A DNA stretch of 44,606 nucleotides, from contig JAFLKN010000018.1 in the NCBI GenBank assembly GCA_019163175.1, positions 1 to 44,606 on the forward strand. Reading direction: 5' to 3'. Shown in pieces: positions 10,289 to 44,606 of this stretch; the stretch's first letter is position 1, and each line of letters opens with the position of its first letter. The DNA comes from Prolixibacteraceae bacterium. GTDB lineage: Bacteria; Bacteroidota; Bacteroidia; Bacteroidales; Prolixibacteraceae. The translations under genes were made by a program, and so were the position numbers. The notes beneath the pieces were generated by a model. That model had not been told where the DNA came from. It worked only from the letters and a program-made list of their open reading frames with translations, and searched no databases.

Positions 10289-10361
10289 CGCGGAGTAGAG
10301 CAGCTGGTAGCTCGCGGGGCTCATAACCCTGAGGTCACAGGTTCGAATCCTGTCTCCGCTA
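10289..10361 (+). tRNA. Initiator tRNA (tRNA-fMet, anticodon CAT)
   Basis: A complete cloverleaf: acceptor CGCGGAG/CTCCGCT, D stem GAGC/GCTC, anticodon stem CGGGG/CCCTG with loop CTCATAA (CAT at 10322-10324), T arm ACAGG-TTCGAAT-CCTGT, discriminator A, no encoded CCA. Two features mark it as an initiator: three consecutive G:C pairs at 29-31/39-41, and a mismatched first acceptor pair (C1/U72). It may help the phage start translation, or be a cargo or former attachment tRNA. The rest of 10098-10465 holds no gene; it contains a GGTGGAA/TTCCACC inverted repeat (about 10143-10179) and GCCCCGGGGC at 10401-10410. Confidence 0.9.
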
Positions 10362-10437
10362 CACGGTAGACGAAGCAAACTGGGGTAGATTCCCTGCGGT
10401 GCCCCGGGGCTTCAAAACCGACAAAAAGTAAAAAAAA

Positions 10438-11533: not shown

Positions 11534-11727
11534 AAATAAGACTTACCGGAGATATTGATCCTGAGTTGACAATTTTAGGATTAAAGCAGGGCGATGAACT
11601 TGAAGTAATACCAGATCCGAATTCAAAGGCGGGTTGCTGCCACTTTACCAAATACCTGAACGGTTATCCTTTTAACTGCTCCATTTGGCCCGATAACTAT
11701 GAAAAAATTAACTCATCACTTAATTAA
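11530..11727 (+). CDS. Small early protein, possibly swapped-hairpin-like
   Basis: A 65-residue protein. The N-terminal stretch MKIRLTGDIDPELTILGLKQ followed by GDELEV resembles the G-L-x-x-G-D-x-hydrophobic pattern of AbrB-like or other small beta-barrel domains, but the match is short. It contains three Cys. It starts within the previous stop (ATGA) and ends 4 bases before the first DGR target gene, so it shares the operon. Confidence 0.6.
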   Translation: MKIRLTGDIDPELTILGLKQGDELEVIPDPNSKAGCCHFTKYLNGYPFNCSIWPDNYEKINSSLN

Positions 11728-11731
11728 AAAC

Positions 11732-12208
11732 ATGGAATTAACGCTCAAAAAAACAACAGCAAAAAAGCTTTATCCTGAAGCTCCTGAGTGGTTTCAGAAA
11801 GTATTAACCGAAACATTTGGAGCTGACTGCTTCAAAAAAAGAGAATTCTACGACATCAAAACATTTGCCGATGCTTGCGAAGAAATTGGAATTACCGAGG
11901 AAGAATTTAATTATCGATTTGCTGCACTTGGTCTGGATCCGGACACCATTAACTACGAAAAACTAAAAATTGTTGTGAAGGCAATTAACCAGGACTGGAC
12001 TCCGGATTGGGACAATACCAATCAACAAAAATGGTGGCCATACTTCAAGCTGTCTTCCGGTTTCGGTTTTTCGGGCTCGTATTGCGCCTACGGTTCCGCG
12101 CATTCGGCTGTCGGCTCTCGCCTTTGCTTTGAAACTGAGAAGAAATCAACCTATGCAGCTAATCAATTCATTGACATTTACGAACAATTCTTAACCATTA
12201 AAAAATAA
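11732..12208 (+). CDS. DGR target protein 1 with variable repeat VR1
   Basis: A 158-residue protein from the ATG at 11732; a start at 11699 would overlap the upstream gene. Residues 107-132 are the variable segment, from LSSGFGFSGSYC through VGSRLC. It lies after a conserved WTPDW...WWPYFK lead-in and before a conserved ANQFIDIYEQFL tail. A paralogue follows 5 bases later. Within the 78-nt repeat, 18 bases differ from the template repeat, all at template adenines. DGR targets are usually ligand-binding proteins; this small family lies in the early block, not among tail genes, so its ligand is unknown. Confidence 0.9.
   Translation: MELTLKKTTAKKLYPEAPEWFQKVLTETFGADCFKKREFYDIKTFADACEEIGITEEEFNYRFAALGLDPDTINYEKLKIVVKAINQDWTPDWDNTNQQKWWPYFKLSSGFGFSGSYCAYGSAHSAVGSRLCFETEKKSTYAANQFIDIYEQFLTIKK
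12050..12127 (+). repeat. DGR variable repeat VR1
   Basis: 78 nt aligned without gaps to the template at 12655-12732. 18 of 21 template adenines are substituted and 0 of 57 non-adenine positions. The last 18 nt (GTCGGCTCTCGCCTTTGC) are identical to VR2, a candidate IMH. Confidence 0.92.
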
Positions 12209-12213
12209 AGATC

Positions 12214-12621
12214 ATGGCTAAAAAATCAGCAAAAAACCAACCTGTTTTCGATTACAGAACAATAAAATCGTTTGAAGATGCGTGCGCAAAAGAAAATATT
12301 GATCCAACAGCACTTCCGGATGTGTCGATGATCCCGGAGGAATTCCGCAAACCAATCATCAACGCCTACAAGCTTTATATCATTTTCAAAGCGATAAATA
12401 ACGGCTGGAGACCAGACTGGAGTAAATCATCGCAATGGAAATACTATCCATGGTACAGGGTTCTGTCTTCCGGTTTCGGTTTTTCGCTCTCGGATTGCAA
12501 CTTCGGTCGCGCGGCTGCGAGTGTCGGCTCTCGCCTTTGCACTGACACCTCAGAGAAGGCTGAGTATATAGCCGAACAGTTCCAGGATGAGTATAAGGAA
12601 TTCTTCCTGTATTCTGAATAA
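12214..12621 (+). CDS. DGR target protein 2 with variable repeat VR2
   Basis: A 135-residue paralogue of the 11732 product. It shares the FxDAC segment near the N-terminus, the KAIN-GW-PDW lead-in, a WKYYPWY block and a C-terminal AEQFQDEYKEFF helix. Residues 84-109 are variable and bounded by LSSGFGFS and VGSRLC. Seventeen bases differ from the template, all at adenines. Two targets served by one template and one RT is a known but less common DGR arrangement. The variable surface includes a Cys from TAC to TGC shared with target 1. Binding partner unknown. Confidence 0.9.
   Translation: MAKKSAKNQPVFDYRTIKSFEDACAKENIDPTALPDVSMIPEEFRKPIINAYKLYIIFKAINNGWRPDWSKSSQWKYYPWYRVLSSGFGFSLSDCNFGRAAASVGSRLCTDTSEKAEYIAEQFQDEYKEFFLYSE
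12463..12540 (+). repeat. DGR variable repeat VR2
   Basis: 78 nt aligned without gaps to the template. 17 of 21 template adenines are substituted and 0 of 57 other positions. Homology extends 3 nt further left (GTT) with the template. A CTCAG-AGAAGG-CTGAG hairpin lies 8 nt downstream at 12549-12564. Confidence 0.92.
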
Positions 12622-12651
12622 TTTAAAAGGTTGTACGCTGCGTTGCTGTTA

Positions 12652-12732
12652 GTTCTGTCTTCCGGTTTCAGTTTTTCGAACTCGAATTACAACTACGATA
12701 ACACGAATACGAATGTCAGCTCTCACCTATGC
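12652..12732 (+). ncRNA. DGR template repeat (TR) region
   Basis: Invariant donor for VR1 and VR2. It reads AAC/AAT-rich codons (AAC TCG AAT TAC AAC TAC in frame), which allow wide amino-acid change when adenines are mutated. It lies between target 2 (ending 12621) and the RT gene (starting 12832), the usual TR-RT order. The open frame through it from 12631 is a copy of target sequence without the conserved lead-in, so it is taken as template RNA, not a gene. Its 3' end GTCAGCTCTCACCTATGC differs from both VRs at three adenines. Confidence 0.9.
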
Positions 12733-12831
12733 GATACTGGCAGCGTAAACCTTGCCAACAGTGCAAAAAACAAAAGATTCTTTAACGGAGCATTGGTACC
12801 TGAGGGAAGATGATCCATTAAAAGCAAAGGC

Positions 12832-13782
12832 ATGAAACGGACCAATAATTTATACGAGAAAATATACTGCATCGAGAACCTCCAGTTGGCTGATGAGATT
12901 GCCCGAAAAGGGAAATCAAAACAGCCTGGAGTAATCGGGCACGACCGGAACCGGGAACAAAACATTCAAAAGCTTCATGAAATGCTGAAGGATAAAACCT
13001 ATCAAACGTCAGAATATACCACGTTCACCATTTTCGAACCTAAAGAGCGCCTGATCTTCCGATTGCCTTATTTTCCTGACCGGATCACCCATCACGCTGT
13101 GATGAACGTATTAGAGCCGATTTTCGTTTCAACATTTACCGCTGATACTTACAGCTGCATCAAGGGGAAAGGCATTCATGCTGCGGCCAATGCGGTTAAG
13201 CGTGCGCTCAAAGATGTTGCCGGAACTCAGTACTGCCTGAAGCTATACATTAAGAAGTTTTACCCGAATGTGGATCACGAAATACTCAAGCAGCTACTCC
13301 GGAGAAAAATAAAGGATAATGACCTGCTTTGGTTGCTCGATGAGATTATTGATTCGACCGATGGCCTTCCAATCGGCAATTATCTGAGCCAGTATTTTGC
13401 CAATTTTTACCTGAGTTATTTTGACCACTGGATGAAAGAACAGCAGCAGGTAAAATATTATTTCCGCTATGCTGATGACCTGGTAATTCTCTCAAGCAAT
13501 AAGCCTTATCTGCATCAATTACTTGCTGAAATCAGGACTTATCTGAATGACCGGCTGAAACTCACCATAAAAGGAAACTATCAGGTATTCCCGGTTGATG
13601 CGCGGGGAATTGACTTTGTTGGTTATGTCTTCCGACATACGCATGTCCTTCTCCGGAAGAGTATCAAACAGAACTTTGCACGGATGCTTAAAACCCGAAG
13701 AAATGCACAGTCAATTGCATCATACAACGGATGGACAGCGCACTGTAATTCAAACAACTTGATGAGAAAACTACTCGCATGA
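12832..13782 (+). CDS. DGR reverse transcriptase with altered motif A
   Basis: A 316-residue RT of normal DGR length. LIFRLPYFPDRITHHAVMNV is the RT finger region. Motif B reads IGNYLSQYFANFYL with the IGxxxSQ signature specific to DGR RTs. Motif C is YFRYADDLVI with Y213-A-D215-D216. Motif A reads KLYIKKFYPNVDH, where KLDIKKFF(Y)P is expected: the catalytic Asp is Tyr139 (TAC at 13246-13248). Loss of this metal ligand should abolish polymerisation. Start at 12832 (MKRTNNLYEKIYC); the stop overlaps the next ATG. The rest of the protein is intact. Confidence 0.93.
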   Translation: MKRTNNLYEKIYCIENLQLADEIARKGKSKQPGVIGHDRNREQNIQKLHEMLKDKTYQTSEYTTFTIFEPKERLIFRLPYFPDRITHHAVMNVLEPIFVSTFTADTYSCIKGKGIHAAANAVKRALKDVAGTQYCLKLYIKKFYPNVDHEILKQLLRRKIKDNDLLWLLDEIIDSTDGLPIGNYLSQYFANFYLSYFDHWMKEQQQVKYYFRYADDLVILSSNKPYLHQLLAEIRTYLNDRLKLTIKGNYQVFPVDARGIDFVGYVFRHTHVLLRKSIKQNFARMLKTRRNAQSIASYNGWTAHCNSNNLMRKLLA

Positions 13783-14090
13783 ACACGTTTAGCCAGTTCA
13801 ACATCAAAGTAGAAAGCCAGGCTTTTGAAGGTGATAAAATTAAGATGTCGAGAATTCTGAACCGTGAAATTGTGGTTCATCATTTCAAGCTGGAAGATTC
13901 GAAAGTGAAATCTTTCCAGGAGAAAGGAACAGGAAAATGTCTGCACTTGCAGATATCATTTGACAACCGAAAGCATGTTGTTTTTACTTCTTCGACCGGG
14001 TTAATTGAAGTAATACAGAAGATCCCGGAGAATGGATTCCCATTCTCAACTACCATAGTCGAAGAAAATGACAGATACTTATTTACCTAA
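13779..14090 (+). CDS. Small beta-rich protein coupled to the DGR RT
   Basis: A 103-residue protein whose ATG overlaps the RT stop (ATGA). The pattern GDKIKMSRILNREIVVHHFK, then CLHLQISF, VVFTSS and FPFSTTIVEENDRYLFT, is beta-rich and could form a small OB-like fold. It is not like the helical-bundle accessory protein Avd of BPP-1 type DGRs, and no Avd candidate was found nearby. Similar short proteins occur in Bacteroidota phage early regions. Either a DGR accessory or a DNA-binding replication protein. Confidence 0.75.
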   Translation: MNTFSQFNIKVESQAFEGDKIKMSRILNREIVVHHFKLEDSKVKSFQEKGTGKCLHLQISFDNRKHVVFTSSTGLIEVIQKIPENGFPFSTTIVEENDRYLFT

Positions 14091-41606: not shown

Positions 41607-42761
41607 ATGGCAGTTACACATAGTTTACCAGGAGGAACTGATTATTTATCCGGAAACCCGATTGAGATAGTTATTACCGCTTCAGCAGCAAAAGACAATC
41701 ATCGCACTGCCGTAAAGGTTAAGTGCGACGAACTTATTTCTGTCGAACAAATTGACGAACGCGAGCCAATTGACCTGGTATCAAAACACAACTTACAGGG
41801 ATTATTGGATGAGCCGCTTCCTGTTGAATTTCACTTCCCGGTTACCGGAGTGGCTTCGGCACATGCTGCCCTGGTACTGAATGTCGATTTGGAAATTGGT
41901 GAAATTTGGAACGATGAAAACGGCGATCGGCAGGAATCATTTACTCCTATATCCGATTCCCTTCGGGTTCTGGATGGAAAATTGTTTCAGCACGAATTGG
42001 CAGTACTGACCGAGGCCGGTAAATCGTTTGCTTCGGAATATATTGAAGGTGGCAAATTCCTTACTTCGCAGCCGAACAATCAGAAAGTGTCGTTAAACCA
42101 ATACGTGAAACTTTGGTACTTAAGCCGCTGGACTGGATCTCATGAGGTTACTCTGTTCACTAAAGTGAATACGAATAATAAGGTAGCTCATATTCCGATC
42201 ATGCAAAATATTACCCTTTATCCAACTACCGGCCTGCTTGAGCTTTCAATCAATCCAATATTCCAGGGCTTTGAACTGGATCCGGGAGAGCTGATCGTAA
42301 GCTTCGAGGTTTGGCTGGAAGATGCCGGAGGTGAAGTTTCGGAACACCGCACTTACATTGTCGATAACAGATATCGCGAACAGCAGCTATTTGGATTCTT
42401 CCGGAATAAATTTTCGGCTGTTGAGTCGTTCTGGTTCCGGGGCGAAAAAGAGGAAGGACTGAAGACCGATATTGAAACTGCCTACACTGCACTTCCTTCC
42501 GGATCGGGCACAAAAAAGGCATCAATTAAAACGGTTTCAAATACCGGATCGAGATACATTGAAGTAAATACAGGAGTACTGAAGCGTGCTGAAATGTTGG
42601 GTCTTCGTGATTTTATTCAGTCGAAAGAACGCTGGATTATTGATCCGGACAATTCCACAAAGCTGATTCCTGTTTACATCGAGGGTGGAGACTTCAAACT
42701 CAATGATACCCGGCAAGATGTTCAGAGCATTGCATTCAAACTAATTGAAGCTCACGTATAA
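41607..42761 (+). CDS. Tail tip/distal tail protein
   Basis: A 384-residue, beta-rich protein (MAVTHSLPGGTDYLSGNPIE). It is just after the tape measure, the usual place of distal tail or tip proteins. No enzyme motif. The TAATG overlap at 42759-42763 couples it to the fibre gene. Some segments (LFGFFRNKFSAVESFWFRGE) look like beta-sandwich tail domains. Class by position. Confidence 0.7.
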   Translation: MAVTHSLPGGTDYLSGNPIEIVITASAAKDNHRTAVKVKCDELISVEQIDEREPIDLVSKHNLQGLLDEPLPVEFHFPVTGVASAHAALVLNVDLEIGEIWNDENGDRQESFTPISDSLRVLDGKLFQHELAVLTEAGKSFASEYIEGGKFLTSQPNNQKVSLNQYVKLWYLSRWTGSHEVTLFTKVNTNNKVAHIPIMQNITLYPTTGLLELSINPIFQGFELDPGELIVSFEVWLEDAGGEVSEHRTYIVDNRYREQQLFGFFRNKFSAVESFWFRGEKEEGLKTDIETAYTALPSGSGTKKASIKTVSNTGSRYIEVNTGVLKRAEMLGLRDFIQSKERWIIDPDNSTKLIPVYIEGGDFKLNDTRQDVQSIAFKLIEAHV

Positions 42762-44606
42762 TGAGAACCAAAGGCGAATTAAAAAAAGCTTATCCAACCC
42801 TTAACCAGTTAATTGATACGCTGTGGCGAAATTACTATGGTTTGTATGCCGAACGCTACCGCGATCCTGTTGATCTCGACGAGTTTGGCGATCCAATCGA
42901 TGCATGGCAAAAAAGTTTCGTTTCGCGCGATATCCGGCATGGTCAGGCTTTAGGCCAAGATAACCTGGTAGAAGGAAACCGCTCAATTGCCATCGGACAA
43001 AGCAATAATACTAAATCGTTTCTGGAGATTGTTTGTGGAGTTTACGCAACAGCACCAAGCGATCAAAACGCAACCGAATGGGTTCCGGCTGATCGGCTGT
43101 TCACCGTTGGAAACGGTTTGGGTCCTTCTCTCCGCAATGATGCACTAACCATTTATAAATCGGGTTATTCTCAATTTACCAATGCCATATTGGTTGGCGA
43201 CTACGACCACCGCGATACGGTTGGTATTTTAATCGATCCCGAAAATGGTACACTTCGATTCACAATTGCCGATAAATACCAATTCTGGGATGTTGACCAT
43301 TGGGCTAGTCTTGGAGGTGCAGGTAGCTATACGCTTCCGGTTGCAACTACAACCATCCTCGGTGGTGTAAAACAGGGATCCGGAACAACAATCGCTGTAG
43401 ATGGAACTATTTCAGTAAGTACAAACTATCAGGCACCACTCAGCGGCACAGGCTTTGTAAAAATATCTGGAACCACCATCAGCTACGACAATAGCACATA
43501 TTTAACCGCTATTACAAAAGCAATGGTGGAGGCTGTCTTGACAGGTGCAATAACCAGCCATACGCACAACTACGACAAATATTCTAAATGGGATGTCAAA
43601 ACATCATACGGAACAACGGGGGTGTTTTCAGGTTCAATTGTTGAATTTGTAGCAGGTTCAGGAATCACAATTACCGATAATTTGAACGCTGGCCATCAGA
43701 TATTAACATTTAGTGCATCCGGCGGCACAATGGTTTATCCTGGGGCTGGCTTAGCTAAGTCAACAGGTAGCGCATGGGCTACTTCAATAACAGATAATTC
43801 AAGCAATTGGAATGCAGCTTATACCCACAAAACAACTGAGGATGCTTTAAATGGCTTGGTGAAAGTTAATGGAGCTGGAGTCTATTCAGCTATTACTGAC
43901 AATTCATCGAATTGGAATGCTGCTTACACCCATAAAACAACTGAGGATGCGTTGAATGGCTTGGTAAAAGTTAATGGAGCTGGAGTCTATTCAGCTGTTA
44001 CTGATAATTCAAGTAACTGGAATGCTGCTTACACCCATAAAACAACTGAGGATGCTTTAAATGGCTTGGTGAAAGTTAATGGAGCTGGAGTCTATTCATC
44101 TGTTACTGATAATTCAAGTAACTGGAATGAAGCTTATACAAATATGGGTAAGGTGGCATTTCACGACAATACTACGCTGATTGGTTATCTGAATAGTACA
44201 AATTTCTCAATAGTCGGGGGTGTTATTTCGCTCCAGTTAAAAACAATAAATAGCACCTCACTGATCGGCATTGGAAACCTATCGCTTCAACCCACGCTTG
44301 TTTCCGGGACAAACATTAAAACGATAAACGGCGCATCAATTTTGGGATCGGGAAATATCACAACAGCAAGCGCCGCAACATGGGGATCAATTACCGGAAC
44401 ACTATCCGCACAAACCGATTTACAATCGGCACTTAATGCAAAAGCCGCGCTTGCCGGTTCAACATCTCAGGACTTTGGTATTCAAAAAATAAACCTGCCT
44501 ACCGGTGGGTATATTCAGGTCGAAAGTGGCAACATACATATCTATCCGGGCTCTACACAGGTAGTGGTTCACGGGCAGGTCACAGCCGATTATTTTTATA
44601 AAACTT
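42761..44606 (+). CDS. Tail fibre protein, open at the right edge
   Basis: Partial gene of at least 615 residues from the ATG at 42761; no stop in the window. The N-terminus is a particle-binding type region (MRTKGELKKAYPTLNQLIDT). The middle and C-terminal parts are Gly/Ser/Thr-rich fibre sequence, with three 35-residue repeats at 43787-44101 and a fourth partial copy. The last residues, VTADYFYKT, look like the lead-in to an intramolecular chaperone (S74-type) domain, usually TSDxRLKxxI, which would lie beyond the edge. Binds the host surface, by class. Confidence 0.85.
   Translation, partial: MRTKGELKKAYPTLNQLIDTLWRNYYGLYAERYRDPVDLDEFGDPIDAWQKSFVSRDIRHGQALGQDNLVEGNRSIAIGQSNNTKSFLEIVCGVYATAPSDQNATEWVPADRLFTVGNGLGPSLRNDALTIYKSGYSQFTNAILVGDYDHRDTVGILIDPENGTLRFTIADKYQFWDVDHWASLGGAGSYTLPVATTTILGGVKQGSGTTIAVDGTISVSTNYQAPLSGTGFVKISGTTISYDNSTYLTAITKAMVEAVLTGAITSHTHNYDKYSKWDVKTSYGTTGVFSGSIVEFVAGSGITITDNLNAGHQILTFSASGGTMVYPGAGLAKSTGSAWATSITDNSSNWNAAYTHKTTEDALNGLVKVNGAGVYSAITDNSSNWNAAYTHKTTEDALNGLVKVNGAGVYSAVTDNSSNWNAAYTHKTTEDALNGLVKVNGAGVYSSVTDNSSNWNEAYTNMGKVAFHDNTTLIGYLNSTNFSIVGGVISLQLKTINSTSLIGIGNLSLQPTLVSGTNIKTINGASILGSGNITTASAATWGSITGTLSAQTDLQSALNAKAALAGSTSQDFGIQKINLPTGGYIQVESGNIHIYPGSTQVVVHGQVTADYFYKT
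43787..44133 (+). repeat. 105-bp tandem repeat in the tail fibre
   Basis: Three full units (43787-43891, 43892-43996, 43997-44101) and a partial fourth encode ITDNSSNWNAAYTHKTTEDA then LNGLVKVNGAGVYSA (35 residues) with few changes. High DNA identity suggests recent expansion or contraction, a way to vary fibre length. Confidence 0.88.

Follow-up and report, generated by a model that had tools for sequence, protein, structure and literature searches.

A phage diversity-generating retroelement whose two detected targets are small, apparently non-virion early proteins

Phage diversity-generating retroelements (DGRs) are mostly explained by receptor switching. What such an element diversifies when its targets lie among early genes is the question raised by a contig of a Prolixibacteraceae bacterium (Bacteroidota). 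The window analysed here is that entire contig (JAFLKN010000018.1, assembly GCA_019163175.1; 44,606 bases), one of 74 in a 5.92-Mb bacterial assembly. It carries two adjacent small genes, T1 and T2, each with a variable repeat (VR1 and VR2), a single template repeat (TR), a reverse transcriptase (RT) gene and a gene for a protein of 103 amino acids (aa). The whole element is almost certainly a DGR. The best explanation overall, favoured by a narrow balance, is a working DGR whose early, non-virion targets T1 and T2 are variable binders inside the cell. Its carrier is read, with about the same modest assurance, as a temperate-type phage of Bacteroidota in which the DGR is laid out with the early genes.

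The relation between template and targets is clear-cut. A recount of the gapless alignments proposed in the first-pass annotation (all of VR1, and 12463-12540 of VR2, against the TR) gives exactly the 18 and 17 mismatches claimed, every one at a TR adenine and none at the 57 non-adenine positions. The probability that all mismatches fall on adenines by chance is 6e-15 for VR1 and 1e-13 for VR2. The VR2 match extends four bases further upstream, to 12459, giving 18 mismatches across 82 nucleotides (nt). On both strands of the window, no other 78-nt stretch exceeds 32 of the 57 non-adenine matches. The earlier statement that 21 adenines are available holds as a count, but only 17 are mutable; four (12670, 12718, 12725 and 12729) appear as a fixed letter in nearly all VRs of relatives. 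Differences at mutable sites therefore amount to 14 of 17 in VR1 and 13 of 17 in VR2.

Mutability was surveyed in 118 VRs, each aligned to its own template. Core adenines (12679-12713) are swapped for all three other letters, with the exception of 12709, where C does not occur. Among VRs whose TR has A at the position concerned, the fixed sites read G at 12670 (85/87), 12718 (113/114) and 12725 (108/108), and T at 12729 (104/104). The fixed differences of the 3′ flank are what initiation of mutagenic homing (IMH/IMH*) marks would look like, elements that are stated for phage BPP-1 (PMC4372165). The mutable adenines occupy 11 codons, from which a stop codon is unreachable, and allow 1.2e10 protein variants per target. 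The first adenine of AAY codons is altered more often than the second in five of six cases, the last AAY codon being reversed (118 VRs); a higher rate at AAC has been reported for the BPP-1 system (PMC12875486). TAC adenines in the core of the window's TR are often retained (73/97 and 67/118), leaving tyrosine. Downstream of the VR, the best stem averages 3.8 bp for T1 (n=56) and 3.7 bp for T2 (n=57), compared with 3.5 bp in shuffles. Short palindromes are seen downstream of several T2 VRs.

The RT is of DGR type, as judged by profile match, motif and identity to Brt of BPP-1 (Table 1). The IGxxxSQ motif noted in the first pass is present as IGNYLSQ, and homology to DGR RTs was tested and found with both phrog_1423 and Brt. 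T1, T2, TR, RT and the 103-aa gene are closely packed, with 5 nt between T1 and T2 and a 4-nt overlap between the RT and 103-aa genes, an arrangement that looks as in one operon. Both target reading frames are open. The T1 start at 11732 is more likely than that at 11699 because T1 of close relatives starts likewise.

The relatives compared are 80 viral loci, the best of 469 by RT match (74-94% identity), and 80 genome loci, the best of 122 (55-90%), mostly of Bacteroidota. Near-identical pairs among them speak against a decayed element. Twelve pairs were compared, and four, chosen from two phage clusters, are highlighted. Loci L012 and L013 (3.0 kb; one cluster) differ at nine TR-adenine sites of VR1, at no other VR site and at nine sites elsewhere, near one end. 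The other three pairs come from the second cluster: L048/L050 (4.7 kb) has 9 mismatches at TR adenines, 2 at other VR sites and 1 elsewhere; L050/L049 (6.0 kb) has 8, 1 and 0; and L049/L052 (6.9 kb) has 12, 0 and 1. Non-adenine differences in relatives, whose rate the first-pass annotation had singled out as telling, are thus few within VRs: summed over the four pairs, 38 mismatches lie at TR adenines, 3 at other VR sites and 11 in the rest of 20.6 kb. TR-adenine changes are confined to one VR in each highlighted pair, and the VRs therefore appear to be rewritten separately. The remaining pairs, in the same order of sites, give 0, 0, 7 (L012/L014); 9, 0, 7 (L013/L014); 21, 2, 2 (L048/L052); 17, 3, 1 (L048/L049); 2, 0, 0 (L045/L049); and 0, 0, 1 for each of L047/L049, L007/L009 and L035/L037.

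The arrangement of one template and two targets is common among these relatives. A census of 81 loci (the 80 viral loci and the window, identical copies included) found two VRs in 63, three in 3, four in 1, one in 10 and none in 4, some of the loci with one or no VR being cut by contig ends (checked in part). Among the 61 loci with distinct TR-RT regions, 50 have two VRs, two have three, one has four and eight have one. The absence of non-adenine changes over the 8,611 positions of the census is a product of how runs were defined and not evidence. In most loci the VR nearest the TR lies ~185-215 nt upstream of it and the other VR ~550-630 nt upstream. Additional targets of the T family (T1, T2 and their homologues) also occur: L056 has a third gene more than 5 kb away from the TR, L080 has four genes, and L177 encodes a tandem T2-T2 protein that contains two VRs and is slightly extended at its C-terminus.

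The template appears to be part of a conserved structured RNA. A stem, P1, encloses the entire template, and the 96-nt spacer between TR and RT holds two further helices, P2 and P3 (Table 1). The P3 hairpin contains an internal loop of GGUA (or AGUA) with GAA, which we take to resemble a bulged-G motif. Across 61 sequences, 95.1% of helix cells in the whole fold are paired and 17 of 25 pairs have changed on both sides; for P1 alone, the figures are 99.3% and 7 of 11. Cells with double-sided change number 147 versus 38 in shuffles, a control that ignores relatedness, and pairing drops to 36-46% when the fold is slid along the alignment. The outermost pairs fail in 13 sequences for P2 and 20 for P3, and in the window itself 2 of 25 named pairs, in P2 and P3, are unpaired. 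Folding of the single template RNA was tried as a criterion and rejected, stability being no better than in shuffles (z 0.38); the support for the fold thus comes from covariation. A covariance model of the spacer without P1 (R1) was built from 49 of the 61 rows of alignment A1 (48 viral loci and the window). It matches once in each of 73 of the 80 genome loci, no more than 26 nt before the start of the RT match, and the 1.29 Mb searched contain no other match. The loci include close kin of the model rows, and the weakest matches (E 0.001-0.03) rest on position. No match was obtained in L131, L138, L145, L146, L155, L156 and L161, or in the stretches read of Versailles, BI-TP1, cr55_1, ANMV-1, vir525 and BPP-1. 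The single match in the host assembly is the window's own, and an Rfam search gave none at the gathering threshold. In BPP-1, the folded spacer recruits the RT-Avd complex, and priming starts from an adenine within it (PMC12875486). By this analogy, the spacer RNA is probably the RT-binding and priming RNA; the enclosing P1 stem may hold the template or set its end.

The 103-aa gene that overlaps the RT stop is a candidate accessory gene. DGRs do not all carry avd. The 103-aa protein gave no alignment with BPP-1 Avd and no Pfam match. Of 157 loci with enough sequence behind the RT, 108 have a homologue there, perhaps an undercount, since 132 loci hold one somewhere. By RT identity, this placement is found in 17 of 17 loci (at least 85%), 55 of 68 (75-85%), 32 of 41 (65-75%) and 4 of 31 (50-65%). 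Among 50,697 phage records, only two homologues were found at E ≤ 1e-3, directly behind the RTs of ANMV-1 and vir525. Both are archaeal viruses, and ANMV-1 carries a published DGR.

T1 and T2 are homologous to one another and to phrog_11581, a family of unknown function. A Pfam search yielded no domain above the cut-off for either, and in particular no immunoglobulin (Ig) or lectin domain. AlphaFold2 models reach a mean predicted local distance difference test score of 85 for each target. The structure of the variable face, which the first pass had proposed to predict, is resolved in part: the short helices flanking the VR are confident, but the VR itself is not (below 50 in T1). Foldseek found no PDB match to the T1 model (the only one submitted) at E ≤ 0.001 and four BFVD matches at that threshold, all uncharacterised phage proteins. 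A sequence profile of the T family gave only two PDB matches, at E 0.12 and 0.32, and an hhalign comparison with Mtd was not significant. Outside the VR, both targets are under purifying selection. The ratio of nonsynonymous to synonymous change (dN/dS) is 0.08-0.16 for T1 in four of five comparisons, the fifth having saturated dS, and 0.06-0.17 for T2 in five relatives, alongside 0.06-0.10 for the RT (five relatives) and 0.02-0.06 for the accessory gene (three relatives); dS is high (0.7-2.0), so these ratios are rough.

A length and motif filter was passed by 166 T-family rows; alignment A2 consists of 142 rows, including the window's two. In a tree computed without the VR by a quick method from few columns (107 distinct rows of 136), a supported branch splits 46 rows (41 T1, 4 extra, 1 T2) from 61 (49 T2, 11 T1, 1 extra). 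In our own reading, 5 of the 11 T1-labelled rows on the T2 side bear labels spoiled by read-through of reading frames or a third gene (L022, L026, L068, L071, L048). The pair likely derives from an old duplication, though not a cleanly separated one, because six exceptions among deep lineages are real (L069, L075, L076, L078, L079, L080). Homologues occur in 5 of 247 host genomes of the order and 3 of 395 of the phylum (own genome counted) and are therefore rare. One genome (G116) holds a T-like gene pair (L223:3558-4450) with no RT match at E ≤ 1e-10, either an orphan pair or the remains of a lost DGR.

What lies beside the RT changes with distance from the window. Where the called open reading frames include an RT (160 loci, counting viral and genome loci and the window), the 1.5 kb upstream of it contain a T-family gene in 18 of 19 cases at RT identity of at least 85%, 65 of 69 at 75-85%, 37 of 41 at 65-75% and 8 of 31 at 50-65%, which makes 120 of 129 at 65% or above. 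The tail-protein family phrog_5302 takes that place in 0, 0, 0 and 22 loci of the same bands, and a single locus, L161, has both. From these counts, the early T-family cassette is the rule in closer relatives and the tail cassette the rule in farther ones. Among 161 loci, neighbours of the cassette belong to a Mu-like DNA-transposition family in 34, to the small and large terminase families in 15 and 14, and to a primase-like family in 12, the window being one of these 12. The same cassette therefore sits in unlike phages.

Within the window, the first-pass placement of two small paralogous targets in an early block far from the tail genes is borne out, the targets lying at 11.7-12.6 kb and tail-like genes at both ends of the contig (Table 1). 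The TR was also scanned over 14 related records (35-61 kb, 14 of 20 searched, perhaps incomplete). No tail VR was found in the window, and in 14 of 14 records the TR matches T-family genes only. A tape-measure homologue is present in nine of the 14, ~18-34 kb from the RT in linear position. The suggestion that this is probably not classic tail-tip tropism switching accordingly stands as to location; as to function, it is still inferred.

Table 1. Coordinates of the element and its surroundings in the window. The names integrase-, repressor-, terminase-, portal-, tape-measure- and tail-like are sequence readings unless a family match is given.
Feature	Position	Strand	Description
T1	11732..12208	+	158 aa; helical N-terminus, VR, C-terminal helices; phrog_11581 E 6e-25
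VR1	12050..12127	+	inside T1, ends 26 codons before stop; 18 mismatches to TR, all at template A
T2	12214..12621	+	135 aa; T1 paralogue; phrog_11581 E 1e-26
VR2	12459..12540	+	inside T2, ends 26 codons before stop; 17 mismatches in 12463-12540, all at template A
P1 5′ arm	12629..12640	+	pairs with 12741-12751; stem encloses entire template
TR	12655..12732	+	78 nt, 21 A and 57 non-A; mutable core 12679-12713; 3′ flank 12714-12732 IMH*-like
Spacer RNA (TR-RT)	12736..12831	+	96 nt; P1 3′ arm 12741-12751, P2 12753-12765, P3 12787-12816, then conserved AAAAGCAAAGGC before RT start
RT	12832..13782	+	316 aa; IGNYLSQ, YADD; phrog_1423 E 1e-125; RVT_1 E 7e-17; BPP-1 Brt 33% identical, E 2e-48
Candidate accessory gene	13779..14090	+	103 aa; start overlaps RT stop by 4 nt
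Integrase-like and repressor-like genes	6.8-9.2 kb	-	
Early block	from 9.3 kb		from list of open reading frames
tRNA-Met (CAT)	10289-10362		inside phage early region
DGR cassette	11.7-14.1 kb		within early block
Large gene	14.2 kb		its relative in L002 matches DNA primase family
Head-protease family gene	20.1 kb		family match
Terminase-like gene	26.8 kb		
Portal-like gene	33.2 kb		
Tape-measure-like gene	37.6 kb		
Tail-like genes	37-44.6 kb and 0.1-5 kb		

Several features of the contig bear on its completeness. Its end lies in the interior of a repeat-bearing tail-fibre-like gene (42761-44605) with about three near-perfect protein repeats, DNSSNWNAAYTHKTTEDALNGLVKVNGAG, and the assembly probably broke at these repeats. 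A circular contig was considered and rejected: a terminal overlap of 20-399 nt is absent, and the last reading frame hits a stop at most 2 bases past the joined start. The tRNA-Met gene was also considered as a host fragment; its nearest long match elsewhere in the assembly is just 77% identical, and it therefore looks phage-encoded. Three phage genes (2501-3181, 3181-5172 and 31878-32411) have signal-peptide-like starts by eye, and the 663-aa product among them reads like a right-handed beta-helix protein.

T-family genes are also diversified at a distance from the RT. In Bacteroides phage Versailles, the RT-side template has one VR match, with 11 adenine changes, in the neighbouring gene, annotated as a tail protein, and another, a 107-nt run with 14 changes, in a distant T-family gene among recombination and replication genes. 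In BI-TP1, the corresponding matches are to the adjacent gene annotated as a tail protein (20 adenine changes) and to a distant T-family gene among methyltransferase and tRNA-ligase genes (113-nt run, 15 changes). Distal T-family VRs occur likewise in the Barnesiella An55 prophage (76-nt run, 14 adenine changes) and the prophage of isolate SW299 (52-nt run, 9 changes). In all these runs the lack of non-adenine changes follows from the run definition, and it is their length and number of adenine changes that carry weight. Next to the An55 T gene lie an SbcC-like gene and others of DNA metabolism, named by sequence reading; their homologues in G102 are annotated. The distal VR of An55 is held by a 255-aa T-family protein with an extra domain (L225:8197-8964), and a second T-like gene there (L225:5634-6188) has no VR match to the TR. 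Given the distal VRs of Versailles, BI-TP1, An55 and SW299, the T family appears to recur across Bacteroidota phages as a second class of DGR target, and in the window no other class was found.

T1 and T2 are probably non-virion early targets. This is favoured because VRs were found only in T-family genes, the cassette lies among early genes, T genes lie distally in other phages, and a precedent has been published. They might instead be virion-displayed adhesins, associated with head or portal and encoded in an unusual place, in which case the DGR would still serve host recognition. We regard this as unlikely, but not negligibly so, and a number of points support it and weigh against an intracellular role. 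In three of six clades, most viral DGR targets carry a tail-protein annotation (Roux et al. 2021, PMC8144416). The VR module of Versailles and BI-TP1 is common to the T-family gene and the RT-adjacent gene annotated as a tail protein, and can serve receptor binding. RT lineages below 65% identity mostly have the tail-protein family just before the RT (22 of 31 loci, with a T-family gene in 8 of 31). The 318-aa tandem T2-T2 protein of L177 is encoded directly upstream of a portal-like gene (55320-56276 of the G004 record), and terminase genes near the cassette in 14-15 loci would allow a virion association. In addition, the T1 model lacks a PDB match at E ≤ 0.001, the two targets have no known partner, and the contig breaks inside a tail-fibre-like gene, so that a tail VR could lie in the missing stretch of the phage. 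Against virion display, neither the window nor the 14 records yielded a tail VR, the T-family gene of the four gut Bacteroidales phages is remote from both the RT and its tail target, and the models show short helices around the VR, with no Pfam domain above the cut-off.

Other explanations keep the targets inside the cell or dispense with a functional DGR. T1 and T2, expressed from the prophage, could exclude superinfecting phages or abort their infections, with a variability that tracks these rivals. The integrase-like and repressor-like genes, the position among early genes and the same variable-binder logic agree with this. The N-termini show neither a hydrophobic signal nor a membrane segment by eye, and this explanation is considered improbable. 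A decayed, inactive DGR is very improbable, given the open reading frames, the dN/dS of 0.06-0.17 for T1 and T2, the VR-centred differences between near-identical relatives and the conserved RNA. Least credible, to the point of near dismissal, is an RT of another class (group II intron, retron or antiviral defence-associated RT, DRT) beside incidental repeats. It draws on sub-threshold NCBIfam matches (group II maturase, 114 bits with a cut-off of 300; Drt3a, 68 of 200; retron St85, 56 of 235; Drt2, 49 of 390), whereas phrog_1423 and Brt match at E 1e-125 and 2e-48, the IGxxxSQ motif is present, and the TR/VR differences are confined to adenines.

Variable binding by early, non-virion T1 and T2 could work as follows, by analogy with BPP-1 for its first steps. 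The RT would copy the structured template RNA, misreading adenines, and the complementary DNA would take the place of the VR in one of the two targets, the fixed 3′ flank distinguishing the recipient from the donor. T1 and T2 would be small proteins that are not part of the virion, are produced early in infection or from the prophage, and display a hypervariable binding patch inside the cell. Their partners might be changing host or rival-phage factors, against which the element would keep a stock of variable counter-defence or exclusion binders. That T1 and T2 are such counter-defence or conflict binders is a tentative proposal. Equally tentative is a DGR devoted wholly to intracellular conflict, with an old T1/T2 pair, two independently randomised patches (~10^10 peptides each), its own template RNA and a non-Avd accessory protein.

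A cassette for which only early, apparently non-virion targets are detected would allow a direct test of a further role of targeted hypermutation, in arms races inside the cell, and a system with no detected tail target is a means to test what non-structural DGR targets do. The T1/T2 pair is kept beside the RT both in phages with Mu-like transposition genes and in phages with integrases. Finding and reconstituting an Avd-free DGR could start from the conserved fold of the RNA and from the accessory gene linked to the RT. If the proposal is true, such phages carry a repertoire of intracellular binders, a hint that protein-randomising machines may serve the fight inside the host cell besides host choice.

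Compared with the BPP-1 DGR (Mtd/Avd/Brt), the element has an RT 33% identical to Brt, a TR just upstream of the RT, VRs altered at adenines only, fixed letters in place of TR adenines towards the 3′ end of the VR in an IMH/IMH*-like manner, and a structured TR-RT spacer (BPP-1 fold: PMC12875486). It differs in having two small early proteins as targets where BPP-1 has the tail tip, in VRs that are not at the C-terminus and lack a clear hairpin after them, and in an RT followed by a small gene that is not Avd-like in sequence. One template with two targets is also known from the Bacuni phages (PMC8143477) and the tentaclin phages nd4 and nd12 (PMC10743442). In these, the targets are fimbrial-tip-like or C-lectin/Ig proteins interpreted as virion binding proteins, whereas T1 and T2 have no such domain; the Bacuni phages, moreover, carry Avd (PMC8143477). 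Tentaclins have an N-terminal C-lectin domain with the VR followed by Ig domains, unlike the helical models of the much smaller T1 and T2. Versailles, An55 and SW299 share the combination of one TR with a distal T-family VR, placed among recombination or replication genes in the first two. They differ by a second VR in the RT-adjacent gene (annotated as a tail protein in Versailles) and in their spacer, the RNA model having no match in Versailles and weak ones in L160 (E ~0.003) and L163 (E ~0.001).

A published counterpart is Quimbyvirus, where one of two DGR targets is apparently non-structural and lies in a defence-related island (Benler et al. 2021, PMC8008677). A 2025 Nature paper (PMC12629997) describes four prophages in which a second VR is found close to counter-defence genes. 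T-family homologues are found in the Quimbyvirus-type phages BI-TP1 and LoVEphage (27-28% identical), with tblastn E values of 6e-7 to 4e-5 for LoVEphage-type phages and 8e-8 for Versailles. The neighbourhood of the BI-TP1 T-family VR gene resembles the published one of Quimbyvirus ORF 84 (PMC8008677), and we infer that the two are the same gene. The RT match in BI-TP1 and LoVEphage falls into three pieces, which agrees with the three-frame RT published for Quimbyvirus. One VR of Quimbyvirus lies in a structural-module gene, whereas the two targets of the window are adjacent T-family genes and a tail VR was not found. The literature searches, outside of which fell many subscription papers, supplements and Wu et al. 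2018, listed nothing recognisable as a description of a phage DGR with solely such targets, this RNA fold or this accessory gene. As far as the accessible record goes, non-structural DGR targets are thus already published in Quimbyvirus, and a DGR with the T family as its only detected targets is a new variation on them.

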